This document shows positions 792 through 19,976 of a stretch of 34,816 bases of DNA, one piece after another. Position 1 is the stretch's first letter. Every line of letters begins with the position of its first letter. Made by a program: the position numbers and the translations under genes. This DNA comes from an uncultured Methylococcaceae bacterium (lineage in GTDB: Bacteria > Pseudomonadota > Gammaproteobacteria > Methylococcales > Methylococcaceae). The stretch covers positions 1 through 34,816 of the forward strand of contig CAIWDB010000661.1 of assembly GCA_903911305.1 (NCBI GenBank), written 5' to 3'. The notes under the pieces were generated by a model that searched no databases, was not told the DNA's origin, and saw nothing but the letters and a program-made list of their open reading frames with translations.

Positions 792-1571
792 TTAGTTCTG
801 TACTACTGGTAGAGTAGCCGCGATTGAAGTAGCGCTTGATGAACAGCTCGGATGACCCCATCCGCCTGCGCTATTGTTTAAGCTATTCACAGTGGTTTTC
901 AGGCCGGCAGAAATGATATCGTAAACAATATTGTCTGGACGGGTAGCGTCACCGCTTAAGACAGTCGGTATGTTACCTAAGTGATCATAGCCAAGGGTGT
1001 TGCGAACACGCCATGCTATGTTGTGGTCCGCGCAGGAGGAGTCGCCGCTGACGCCTAACCCACCCACGATGACATGACCAGACGTATAGAGCCCAAGACC
1101 GCCACCAAATATATTTACGCCGCCAATCTTGCCTCCCACCATAGGGTCAGTCGCCGTACCGAAGAGTGACGAACTACCACGATAGGCCACATTGGTATCC
1201 ACAGGGTTGCTAAATTGAAGACCAGCCAATGTGCCGCCCGGTTGGACTGCCGAGAAAAGGTTTGCAGTTGAAATGGACACTACGTCAAGACTAAACGCAT
1301 TGGCTGTATTGGCCTTTTGTGCGGAGATTACCCGACTGCCTAGCCACTGTGAACCGGAGTTTGCGCCAGAGTAAGCCACGGCACACACGGTGCCATCACG
1401 GGCGACTATGGTTCCCCACATATTTAGGCCGAAGCCACCGTTGGATTGTTGCTGTGCGAGTATCAGTGCAGCTTTGAGGGCTGGCTGGCTGGGAAGTCCA
1501 TCGCAAACGCCAGCCATGACAGTGGAGGAACCCATCATCAAAGCCATTGCGGCCAACAGTTTTTTGTTCAT
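792..1571 (-). CDS. Exported GlcG/HbpS-like (DUF336) haem-binding-type protein
   Basis: The protein has 259 residues from ATG 1571. This start is preferred over ATG 1577 because AGGAG (1581-1585) is 9 bases from it and only 3 from the other. It has a clear signal peptide (MNKKLLAAMALMMGSSTVMA) with cleavage expected at the VMA-G step. The mature part resembles the GlcG/HbpS (DUF336) fold: an ALKAALILAQQ helix, glycine-rich strands, a GGLGVSGDSS segment and a terminal-type helix SCADHNIAWRVRN. Proteins of this family bind haem or small ligands, and secreted ones occur beside oxidases and cytochromes. The neighbour at 2041-2739 is a c-type cytochrome-like gene, so a periplasmic haem or redox role is a reasonable inference. 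The mature domain has four cysteines. The exact ligand is not known. Confidence 0.75.
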   Translation of the reverse strand: MNKKLLAAMALMMGSSTVMAGVCDGLPSQPALKAALILAQQQSNGGFGLNMWGTIVARDGTVCAVAYSGANSGSQWLGSRVISAQKANTANAFSLDVVSISTANLFSAVQPGGTLAGLQFSNPVDTNVAYRGSSSLFGTATDPMVGGKIGGVNIFGGGLGLYTSGHVIVGGLGVSGDSSCADHNIAWRVRNTLGYDHLGNIPTVLSGDATRPDNIVYDIISAGLKTTVNSLNNSAGGWGHPSCSSSATSIAATLPVVQN

Positions 1572-1823
1572 ACGCATGATCTCCTAAAGTTGGATTGGGA
1601 AAACTTACAAGAAGGGCATAAGAGGTTTCGCGCCGAAACTTACCCCTATAATTGTGCAAAAACCTATCTTACTGATATTTCGGATTTTATGACTGACTGA
1701 AATCAGGTACAGCCCAAACCGAAAACAACAGTTGTGGTTTGGCGTGTGATTTTATACACAAATCCCGGTATGAAAGTAAAGAATTATTTTCGGTAGTTTT
1801 ACCTAGACCGAGCAGTCACGTTG

Positions 1824-1858
1824 GCATATATAATGCTCATTAATAGCATATTATATGC
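1824..1858. repeat. Imperfect AT-rich inverted repeat upstream of the haem-binding gene
   Basis: GCATATATAATGCT (1824-1837) and AGCATATTATATGC (1845-1858) pair at 12 of 14 positions around a 7-base loop. It sits in the 350-base AT-rich stretch upstream of the minus-strand gene starting at 1571, where a promoter or operator is expected. A shorter hairpin (AGACCGA / TCGGTCT, 1897-1915) lies just beyond. Apart from these and the terminator at 1929-1960, I see no gene between 1578 and 2040. Confidence 0.35.
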
Positions 1859-1928
1859 AACAACCTTTTTGCATCTTGAAAATAGATAGTTACTTGAGAC
1901 CGATATCCTCGGTCTAAAAACGACACGC

Positions 1929-1960
1929 AAAAAAAACCGCCGCAGCTTTCGCCGGGGCGG
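1929..1960 (-). terminator. Rho-independent terminator after the cytochrome-like gene
   Basis: Read on the minus strand, a stem CCGCC / GGCGG (1960-1956 with 1941-1937) is extended by CGGC / GCTG around a GAAA tetraloop with one C-C mismatch, and is followed by eight T residues (1936-1929). It lies about 80 bases downstream of the stop at 2041 and has the form expected of an intrinsic terminator. Confidence 0.85.
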
Positions 1961-2040
1961 GTTTGTGAACTTCTTTCTTTGAACCTGTGGAGCAAGCCAT
2001 TAAACGCTGCCCACAAATGACGCTGACTTATCTGTTTTGC

Positions 2041-2739
2041 TTAAGGCGCATTCAGTTGGAAGCTGGAATAATACAGTTGGTTATAATCCAATATACCATT
2101 CATGTTGGTGTCTACCCCAAAATAGATAACATATTTCCCGCTTGGCAGACCGGTGACATCAAATAACGTCAAACTGGATATATTAACTAACGGCCCTTGG
2201 TAGGCTGGAAGAGCGCCACTCAAGTTTGTTCCAATATCCTTCCAAACGTTTGGATAGATATAGTAATACCAGTGTCCCCAATGGGTGTAAGCCACAAGCC
2301 ACCAGTCAGCTTTTTTACCTTGACCAGAGGCAGGGGCGAGCGAAATTGCCAGCGACGAGCCATTGAGATTAAGCAAGGGCGCGGGGATAGCCTCCGAGGT
2401 TCTTGGGAAACCGGCATTTTCCCATGCATGCATGGCGCTTAATTGCTCTGCATTAAACGTTGGGTCACCGCTGTCTGGGGATGGCATCTCCAACTCCCTC
2501 ACTTCTGCCATTAGTTCAGCAGAATTCACTATCGCTACCTCATAGGTATCAAAATCAATAGAAACCGGGGCTCCGTTTCGATTAGCTCCGCTAAGATTGG
2601 TTTAATGGCAGGAAAGGCAATTGGTTGCCAATGCTTTCTCCCTGATGCCGTTCGAACCCTCATAGACAGGATCAATGGCAAAAGCATGATCTGCAATAAA
2701 AAAAAGAAATAGAATGCTAAATGCACTTTTCATTTTCAC
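2041..2739 (-). pseudogene. Exported c-type cytochrome-like protein interrupted by TAA after CXXCH
   Basis: One frame runs from GTG 2739 (or ATG 2733; AGGGGAA lies just upstream) to the stop at 2041, broken by a single TAA at 2602-2604. Before the stop are a signal peptide (MKSAFSILFLFFIADHAFA) and ATNCLSCH, a haem c attachment motif CXXCH. The stop directly follows that motif. Beyond it the same frame continues as TNLSGANRNGAPVSIDFDTYE and then an ..MPSPDSG..QLSAMHAWENAGFP segment, typical of the remainder of a small monohaem cytochrome domain. A C-terminal surface-type domain of about 110 residues follows (ADWWLVAY, YPNVWKD, then a calcium-loop-like DTNMNGILD). Without the stop the protein would have about 232 residues. 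Nonsense mutation, sequencing error and readthrough are all possible. A downstream open frame could also begin at GTG 2529 with GAGG upstream, but it would lack signal peptide and haem motif. Confidence 0.75.
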
Positions 2740-2965
2740 AATCGTTCCCCTATGCTACAAATATTCAAATAAAAGCAATGTGCTAAATAAATTACAATCA
2801 TTCCAATACATAGCTTATTTTAGAGCATCATCTATCCAAACGTTCCTATCTGACTAGCTGATGTATTGCAACATCTTAGGTTCGGAGCGTCAATGTAAAG
2901 AAAACGTTGAAACCAAACACTGGGGCGATGAATAACATAAACTCTGTGCATAAGCAAAATGACTT

Positions 2966-2996
2966 GTCTGCCCAGCCCTCTGCTATTCAGGCAGAC
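2966..2996 (-). terminator. Weak hairpin overlapping the stop of the small PEP-CTERM gene
   Basis: GTCTGCC (2966-2972) pairs with GGCAGAC (2990-2996). On the minus strand the hairpin begins in the last codons of the gene ending at 2987. Only a weak T-containing stretch follows (AAGTCATTTTGC), so termination is uncertain. The region from 2740 to 2965 shows no gene I can support. Confidence 0.3.
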
Positions 2997-3427
2997 AATC
3001 GCTGTTTGCGGAAAAGCGTTTGCGCCAACATGCCAACGGCTAAAAGTATTAGGCTTGATGGTTCTGGCGCTTCGGAACCGGACGTAAACCGAGTAAACCC
3101 TCCCCCGGTGACAGACGTATAATCGATTTGACCTAAGCTTGCTAACACACCTGTGTTGGAACTTCCATAAAGCTGCCCGTTATAGCTTGCCAGCGCCGAA
3201 ATACTGGCGGAAGTTTCGGCATTTATCTCGGTGTATGTCAGGCTGACAAGGTCGAGAGTACCAAATGTGTCGTTATTTCCGGTCAGAAAAACCAAACTGG
3301 ACGCTGTGGAATGTCCAGATACCAACATTGCAAACAAGGCAATGAGGCTTGTTAATAAGTGTTTGCTTTTCTTTACACAATTGAGTATTTGTGTTTGCGC
3401 TGATGCGCAATTGCTATTTTCCGCCAA
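2987..3427 (-). CDS. Short PEP-CTERM exported protein
   Basis: The frame gives 146 residues from TTG 3427, the only common start codon ahead of the hydrophobic leader; an in-frame stop lies just upstream and there is no clear ribosome-binding site, so the start is uncertain. A leader with KKSKHLLTSLIALFAMLV and a cleavage region at HSTASS resembles a signal peptide. The mature part of about 100 residues has one beta-propeller-like stretch (LVFLTGNNDTFGTLDLVSLT, later GQLYGSSNTGVLASLGQIDY). The C-terminus is a complete PEP-CTERM signal: APEPSSLILLAVGMLAQTLF followed by RKQRLSA. It should be processed by an exosortase and exposed or released at the cell surface. It is short for the class and may be the remnant of a longer propeller protein. 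This is the second PEP-CTERM gene in 3.5 kb. Confidence 0.75.
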   Translation of the reverse strand: MAENSNCASAQTQILNCVKKSKHLLTSLIALFAMLVSGHSTASSLVFLTGNNDTFGTLDLVSLTYTEINAETSASISALASYNGQLYGSSNTGVLASLGQIDYTSVTGGGFTRFTSGSEAPEPSSLILLAVGMLAQTLFRKQRLSA

Positions 3428-3515
3428 ACAGGGATGTATTGGTTATGGAGTTTTTAACACAGGGTGGAAGGGTTGGCTACCCACGAAATCTGACGAAACC
3501 TGTCGAAAAGTAACA

Positions 3516-4220
3516 TTATTGAATGTTGACTTGGCCCGAAAAACAGTAACCCACCCCGTGGAAATTTAAGACAGGGGCATCCTCTCCGGTAAGTTTGCGA
3601 ATTTTATTCCGCAACCTTAACATTAGGCTGTCAAATGCGCGCCCAAGATAATCATCCTCTGGATAGGCCAAGAGAGTTAATAACTGCCTGCGCCCTATTA
3701 AATTCTCGTCTGCTTCAGCAAGGATTCGAACCAAGTTGAATTCCTTGCCAGTCAGATTAATTTCAACGCCATCAGGGCTGATGAGTAGCCTAGTTGAAAG
3801 GTGTAGAACCCAAGCATTCATGGATGCCATGGGTTGGGAGTGGCGCTCCAAATGTCGTTTGGCAAGGTTTTCAATAGCCGCCACCAGTTCCCTCATATTC
3901 ACAGGCTTGACTAAATAAAGGTCTGCGCCACAGGAATAACCCCGAATGCGGTGTTCAATATCGCTGTGAGCGGTAAGGATAATGATGCCGAGATCAGTGT
4001 TATGGCGCACATATTCGGCAAGCACATAGCCTGATTGGTCCGGTAAGCCGATGTCGATTACAGCAACATCGAACGACTCTTGATCAAGGCATTGGTAAAA
4101 TTCCCGTGCGCTGCCTACCGCTTTCATACTATATCCTTCATCTTCGACAAAGTAAGCCAACGCTTCGCGCATGACGATGTCGTCATCCACTATTAAAACT
4201 CGAAATGATGAATTGTTCAT
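3516..4220 (-). CDS. OmpR/PhoB-family two-component response regulator
   Basis: The protein has 234 residues. Residues 6-120 are a receiver domain: acidic pocket at D12-D14 (VLIVDDD), phosphoacceptor D56 (VIDIGLPD), conserved T83 (IIILTAHSD) and K105 (YLVKPV). Residues 135-230 form a winged-helix DNA-binding domain with the family landmarks LTGKEFNLVRILAE, the recognition-helix region DSLMLRLRNKIRKL and the wing NFHGVGYCF. It is expected to bind DNA as a phosphorylated dimer and to act as a transcription factor. No histidine kinase is present in the window, so it is an orphan here. The divergence of its last residues (SGQVNIQ) is normal. Its targets are unknown; the nearby exported-protein genes on the same strand are candidates by position only. 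Confidence 0.9.
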   Translation of the reverse strand: MNNSSFRVLIVDDDIVMREALAYFVEDEGYSMKAVGSAREFYQCLDQESFDVAVIDIGLPDQSGYVLAEYVRHNTDLGIIILTAHSDIEHRIRGYSCGADLYLVKPVNMRELVAAIENLAKRHLERHSQPMASMNAWVLHLSTRLLISPDGVEINLTGKEFNLVRILAEADENLIGRRQLLTLLAYPEDDYLGRAFDSLMLRLRNKIRKLTGEDAPVLNFHGVGYCFSGQVNIQ

Positions 4221-19235: not shown

Positions 19236-19976
19236 GCATTTCTAGAGTATGAAGCCTATGAGCAAAAACAAACTGACCTAGAGCGCCACATATACTTGTG
19301 CGCATTGCAGGACAACAATGAGGTTCTGTTTTACCATTTGCTGCTTGATCACGCAGAAGAAATGATGCCCATTATTTATACGCCAGTTGTCGCCATGGGA
19401 TGCGAGCAATTCAGCCATATTTATCGGAGGCCAAGGGGGATTTTCATCAGTTATCCCATGCGCACACGAATACGCACTCTGTTGCACAACCGCCCGCATT
19501 CTAAAATTGATGTGATATCCAACCCGACAGACCGCGCGGATGCCCGTCCCGATGACTTGATAGAATGGACCGAAGGGCGCGCACTGATTGCCACCGGGTC
19601 GCCATTTGCCCCGGTTTCATTCGGGGACCGTGCGATTCCCATAGGACAATGTAATAATGTGTTTATCTTCCCATCTGTTGGCCTAGGGGTCATCGCATCG
19701 GGTGCCCGCCGCATCACAGATGGCATGATGCTGGCCGCCGCCAGAGCCTTGGGTGACAACTCACCCGCTTTACGCGATGCCAATGGCTCCTTGCTGCCAG
19801 CCATCAGCGAAATCAGAAAGGTTGCCATTGACGTGGCCGTTGCCGTGGGAACCGAGGCGCAAAGAGTAGGACTGGCACCCCTCACTGACTTACCTACATT
19901 GCGGGATAAAGTTGTCGCCAGCCAATGGATACCGGCTTATACGTGGATAAAATTCAATTTGCCAGTGGTGGCATGA
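19236..19976 (+). pseudogene. Remnant of NAD-dependent malic enzyme with large internal deletion
   Basis: Read in one frame from 19236, [20 protein letters not shown] leads into [20 protein letters not shown] and [20 protein letters not shown], the N-terminal domain of NAD-malic enzymes. After HSKIDVI the frame jumps directly to [20 protein letters not shown] and [27 protein letters not shown], the C-terminal part. Roughly 250-300 residues with the catalytic core and the Rossmann NAD domain are missing, with the joint near 19520. Upstream of 19236 a TAG (19233-19235) and frame disruption remove the expected start. The remaining reading frame has stayed open, so the deletion was in frame and may be recent. 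The common order places the first in-frame start at TTG 19296. It should not be functional as a malic enzyme. Confidence 0.85.

Follow-up and report, generated by a model that had tools for sequence, protein, structure and literature searches.

A probable young nonsense pseudogene of a duplicated, exported cytochrome gene in an uncultured Methylococcaceae bacterium, with the stop directly behind the haem-attachment motif

The minus strand of the window, i.e., the whole stretch of 34,816 nucleotides analyzed here, carries a gene for an exported monohaem cytochrome which is interrupted by one in-frame TAA directly behind its CXXCH haem-attachment motif, and which is most probably a young nonsense pseudogene of a duplicated gene. 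This assignment draws on the presence of an intact paralogue in the same genome, on the sense codons found at the position of the stop in 22 of 22 homologues, on the constraint recorded downstream of the stop, and on the larger number of lone departures and the longer end branch of the window copy. Three decayed-looking loci of the same family and a decayed malic enzyme gene in the window were also counted toward it, whereas the lack of a significant difference between the two copies in joint codon fits was counted against it. The gene resembles other nonsense pseudogenes of duplicated bacterial genes in its single stop, readable frame, intact paralogue and past constraint, and differs from the ordinary cases only in having its stop at the codon next to the haem motif. 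As a young pseudogene, it represents a clean but ordinary case of duplicate loss in an exported cytochrome family of patchy distribution across the order, and its importance would increase only upon proof that the truncated peptide bears haem or that the stop is read through.

The order of events may be envisaged as follows. An ancestral gene would have coded for an exported protein in which a signal peptide was followed by a monohaem cytochrome c domain and a C-terminal beta domain. It would have been duplicated from its ribosome-binding site to its terminator, and selection would probably have acted on both copies over much of the period that followed. The window copy would then have gained the stop directly after CXXCH, with the second copy remaining unbroken. 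Translation of the window copy would now end after 45 codons, yielding an exported and presumably functionless stub of about 24 residues with neither an axial Met nor a fold, which would most likely be degraded.

The interrupted frame and its intact paralogue

As judged from the open reading frame and the comparison with the paralogue, the interrupted gene occupies positions 2041..2739 of the minus strand and runs from GTG to TAA over 232 codons, a count that begins at GTG 2739-2737, takes in the inner TAA and leaves out the final stop TAA 2043-2041. This reproduces the length given in a preliminary description of this DNA, and the paralogue likewise starts with GTG (GTG AAA x AAA AGT). The ribosome-binding site mentioned there corresponds to an SD-like AGGGGA (2746..2751, minus strand) ahead of GTG 2739, with an alternative ATG at 2733, in a region spanned by the paralogue alignment. 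The signal peptide VKMKSAFSILFLFFIADHAFA (2677..2739, minus strand) is of the Sec type as read by eye and resembles the starts of homologues, with a putative cleavage site. The motif CLSCH (2605..2619, minus strand; NCLSCH in the frame) is followed immediately by TAA (2602..2604), just as originally described, and behind this stop the frame reads TNLSGANRNGAPVSIDFDTYE and is open for 186 codons up to TAA 2043-2041. Compared with the paralogue, these 186 codons show 70% amino acid identity and a dN/dS of 0.27, indicating a coding sequence rather than an accidentally open frame. They contain the remainder of the monohaem cytochrome domain (2398..2601, minus strand) and a C-terminal beta-rich domain common to other proteins of the genus (2044..2382, minus strand).

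The signal peptide, the CXXCH motif and the distal Met (in EMPSP) are all readable in the window frame, in agreement with the earlier statement that signal peptide, cytochrome segment and C-terminal domain had been preserved. Both copies match the Pfam family Cytochrome_CBB3 below the cut-off, with E values of 0.03 for the window copy (stop read as X) and 5e-4 for the paralogue. The further statement that nothing else in the gene was damaged holds for stops and frameshifts, of which no others are present, but not for conserved residues: in this copy alone, the second Pro of MPP is changed to Ser (Pro in 95% of the outgroup rows), a Leu to Phe (Leu invariant in those of the 21 outgroup rows that have a letter there), and a Pro of the C-terminal domain to His (Pro invariant in 11 outgroup rows). 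Of the strong terminator claimed for the gene, a terminator-like hairpin with a GAAA loop and a T run is indeed found at 1929..1960 (minus strand) within the stretch aligned with the paralogue, and has a centroid energy of -16.5 kcal/mol; its strength is not borne out by the z-score against shuffled sequences (-0.59), and the hairpin is absent from the list of a simple terminator scan.

The unbroken paralogue is located on contig C126 of the same genome (G000, of which the window is contig C661), shares 72% amino acid identity with the window copy, and contains TCA (Ser) at the position of the stop. The DNA sequences of the two copies align over 870 columns with 77% identity. The alignment takes in both the ribosome-binding site and the hairpin, and breaks off at these elements on either side. 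A contaminant origin of contig C126 was considered and rejected: this contig reads as carrying tgt, secD and secF, and its secD is the only full-length match in the genome and 94-95% identical to those of the genus members G001 and G002, showing that the contig belongs to the organism. The G+C contents of C126 (0.45-0.47), the window (0.495) and the compared stretch of G001 (0.473) differ little and were not counted against it. The intact second copy, of which the preliminary description did not know, makes the loss of the window copy easy to explain.

The synonymous divergence between the two copies amounts to about 0.68 and is thus lower than the values obtained against G001 for purN (1.97) and the ribonucleotide reductase end (0.96), which suggests that the duplication occurred after the species split, although the comparison is rough and purN is near saturation. 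In the tree of the cytochrome part, the window copy and the paralogue are grouped with modest support (86/78), while they are joined at 98/97 in the tree of the C-terminal domain. The end branches in the cytochrome tree are 0.65 for the window copy and 0.29 for the paralogue, and it is this long end branch of its own that places the window copy slightly nearer by path to a homologue in another genome (L094 of G103; 0.89) than to the paralogue (0.93).

The codon in relatives and selection on the two copies

A search with a three-row profile gave matches in 14 of the 311 genomes of the order, the window genome counted. Of the 27 places found, 23 were used for comparing the codon after CXXCH, namely the window, the paralogue and 21 others (in G051, G097, G099-G101, G103, G169, G215, G218, G263 and G306), while the partial places L104, L111, L112 and L105 were excluded. 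In the paralogue and all 21 other places the codon is a sense codon, coding for Ser in 19 cases, Ala in two and Thr in one, with TCA being used in nine; L104, the sole partial place covering the motif, has a sense codon after it as well. None of the 22 homologues ends at CXXCH, contrary to a possibility raised in the preliminary description, whose proposal of a very recent pseudogene arising by a single base change at a TCA-type Ser codon is supported by the TCA of the paralogue and by these homologues.

The exported monohaem cytochromes of the order share with the window copy, for the most part, a signal-like start and the elements AIxPVYxG..GI....NCLxCHSS, RNGAP, DTY, MPP and W..xGFP, and occur in several copies in some genomes, but they carry other C-terminal parts; no fusion of the cytochrome with the C-terminal domain described here was seen outside the two copies of G000. 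Among the 38 genomes of family f1, the cytochrome part was matched solely in the window's own. Three genomes of genus g35 (family f8) have their cytochrome genes arranged in close multi-copy runs; these genes contain another repeated C-terminal domain (L095, L096, L099, L106, L107, L109, L113-L115 and L117). As judged from three-frame reading, the four partial places represent three decayed-looking loci in G087, G263 and G216, from which loss of members seems to be usual in this cytochrome family. The locus in G087 has sense codons after the motif, with the domain continuing in another frame, and at the loci in G263 and G216, no motif-bearing front half was recognized ahead of the match; the G216 genome is 77% complete, but its match lies inside a contig.

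Selection was assessed by joint codon fits with shared branch times and separate omega values for the pre-stop segment, the post-stop cytochrome part and the C-terminal domain, using three outgroup sets; these fits comprised at most five taxa per part, with outgroups and branching chosen by us. For the three parts in this order, omega was 0.12-0.16, 0.95-1.14 and 0.16-0.18 on the window branch, compared with 0.07-0.09, 0.35-0.43 and 0.10-0.11 on the paralogue branch. An omega of 1 on the window branch was rejected for the C-terminal domain (p 0.0001-0.0026; omega range about 0.07-0.47 from an interpolated profile with one outgroup set) and for the pre-stop segment (p 0.0003-0.0043), but not for the post-stop cytochrome part (p 0.73-0.96). 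The differences between window copy and paralogue were not significant for the post-stop cytochrome part (p 0.077-0.110), the C-terminal domain (p 0.51-0.62), or all three parts jointly (p 0.37-0.45). When the parts were fitted separately without shared times, the difference between the copies in the post-stop cytochrome part became larger (2dlnL 5.28), and an omega of 1 was not rejected for the C-terminal domain (2dlnL 1.58). Lone departures from columns in which at least 60% of the outgroup rows agree were counted for window copy versus paralogue as 2 versus 0 in the pre-stop segment, 9 versus 4 in the post-stop cytochrome part, and 5 versus 1 in the C-terminal domain (L011, L012 and L016 excluded from the rows of the latter).

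The constraint on the C-terminal domain in the joint fits suggests that the downstream frame was probably both translated and under selection along most of the window branch, and hence that the stop should be young. The post-stop cytochrome part may already have been drifting, and the lone departures counted behind the stop (9 versus 4 and 5 versus 1) point in this direction. The main alternative to a pseudogene is that the draft consensus is wrong through faulty assembly or sequencing, or has captured a recent or minority polymorphism, with the gene being intact in most cells. As the window copy contains no further stop or frameshift, either case would look alike, and the apparent constraint on the C-terminal domain of a gene without any other lesion fits such an origin just as the state of the assembly does, a draft of 5.84 Mb in 661 contigs with an estimated contamination of 2.95%. 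However, a single substitution without an indel is generally not the usual kind of consensus error, and the omega close to 1 in the post-stop cytochrome part is in line with weakened selection, even if the window copy does not differ significantly from the paralogue in this part. We therefore regard an intact gene behind a faulty or polymorphic consensus as unlikely.

Possible products of the interrupted gene

A constrained C-terminal domain behind the stop is also expected if translation has continued by some route. One such route, proposed in the preliminary description, is readthrough of a leaky or programmed TAA, or its decoding by a suppressor tRNA, to yield some full-length haem protein, which would be consistent with the fully open downstream frame and the constraint on the C-terminal domain in the joint fits. 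The Rfam tRNA model gave 40 tRNA genes in the draft genome, for all of which anticodons were assigned by ARAGORN, and none of these 40 has a stop anticodon (TAA, TAG or TGA); in this search, scoring extended to 150 of the 241 first-look candidates, and the expected tRNAs for Cys, Gly-GCC, Ile-GAT and Ala-TGC were among those not found. Three matches to the release-factor family are present in the genome. A reassigned code or a suppressor tRNA, for which a check had been suggested, was rejected on the basis of the tRNAs found and the presence of the release-factor family. The adjoining response-regulator gene (4220-3516, minus strand) uses TAA as an ordinary stop, the stop of the cytochrome gene is conserved in none of the 22 homologues, and an omega of about 1 in the post-stop cytochrome part is not predicted if a haem protein is made. 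Readthrough is accordingly considered highly improbable, and of the three options named in the preliminary description (a very recent pseudogene, a sequencing error and readthrough), the first is the one supported.

Another conceivable route is internal initiation at GTG 2529, which is preceded by GAGG at a spacing of 8 nt (2527..2541, minus strand) and would lead to synthesis of the C-terminal domain alone. The omega of about 1 in the cytochrome part combined with the low value in the C-terminal domain would suit this putative start. However, the predicted product of 162 amino acids lacks a signal peptide, while the three other proteins with this domain whose starts are visible (L003, L004 and L013) open with signal-like stretches as judged by eye. 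Moreover, the GAGG spans the codon for the conserved Glu in DTYE and also occurs in the paralogue, where it precedes TTG, so its occurrence is probably incidental, and there is very little reason to expect that this start is used.

Finally, the stop itself might be functional, giving rise to a natural exported haem c peptide, about 24 residues long and ending exactly at CXXCH, in effect a genome-encoded microperoxidase matured by System I. CcmF is present in the genome, from which System I is likely to be present, and haem attachment by this system has been reported for CXXCH peptides as short as 12 residues (according to excerpts of PMC3601427, with a similar point in those of PMC3884852); haem attachment to peptides of 9 to 20 residues in vitro has been described for the bacterial synthase CcsBA (excerpts of PMC8112865). 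Going by these excerpts, a stub of about 24 residues could be loaded with haem. The artificial microperoxidases produced via System I in E. coli (Braun and Thony-Meyer, 2004, as cited in excerpts of PMC3601427 and PMC3884852) are likewise short exported CXXCH peptides, but they were engineered, whereas the stub from the window would be natural and would carry CXXCH at its very C-terminus. The open-access literature searched yielded no account of a naturally occurring cytochrome truncated at CXXCH. The pre-stop segment is constrained on the window branch (omega 0.12-0.16), which speaks for such a peptide, but it comprises 35 codons, and the same segment of the paralogue is equally constrained (omega 0.07-0.09), so the constraint need not concern the stop. 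The same stop occurs in none of the 22 homologues. With 53 of the 233 paralogue codons being one step away from a stop, a stop at precisely the codon after CXXCH represents an event of about 1 in 50 that was noticed after the fact, which makes its position a weak argument. A functional haem peptide is thus given hardly any credence.

The C-terminal domain and the genomic setting

The pattern DWW..GHWY..YP..W..IGT..YQGPL..YFGVDTNMNG.LD, which characterizes the C-terminal domain (2044-2382 in the window), ends different larger proteins in the genus (L003, L004, L005-L009 and L013-L017), including a HAF-repeat protein (L003, by NCBIfam), a DUF3466-like protein (L013) and others recognized by eye. 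Relatives of the domain are also found in records from Desulfobacteraceae and Nitrospirae, and no Pfam or NCBIfam family scored above the cut-off. The predicted model is beta-rich and of modest quality (mean pLDDT 66.6); a Foldseek search with it gave no PDB match at E <=0.001, fibronectin-III-like structures making up most of the best rows (E about 0.03-0.1), and no function follows from a fold assigned on this basis. A sequence search of solved structures with the paralogue gave no match below E 0.016.

In the window, the genes for a response regulator, a PEP-CTERM protein and the interrupted cytochrome (792-4220, minus strand) are located between purN and an HbpS-like gene (PF03928); in the genus relative G001, purN is followed by an HbpS-like gene. 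The three intervening genes had no match in the stretch from G001 (tblastn, E 1e-3), and in the other five genus stretches purN was the sole match, apart from a match to the reductase end in L089, a stretch truncated by the end of its contig. An orthologue of the window cytochrome gene was not found in the genus stretches compared, nor among plasmids (no match) or viral contigs (47 pattern matches, none confirmed). Farther along the window, a remnant of a malic enzyme gene (19296-19976, plus strand) has lost a large inner part: its single open frame covers the beginning of the N-terminal domain (profile positions 1-70 of 182) and continues with the final portion of the NAD-binding domain (128-257 of 258).
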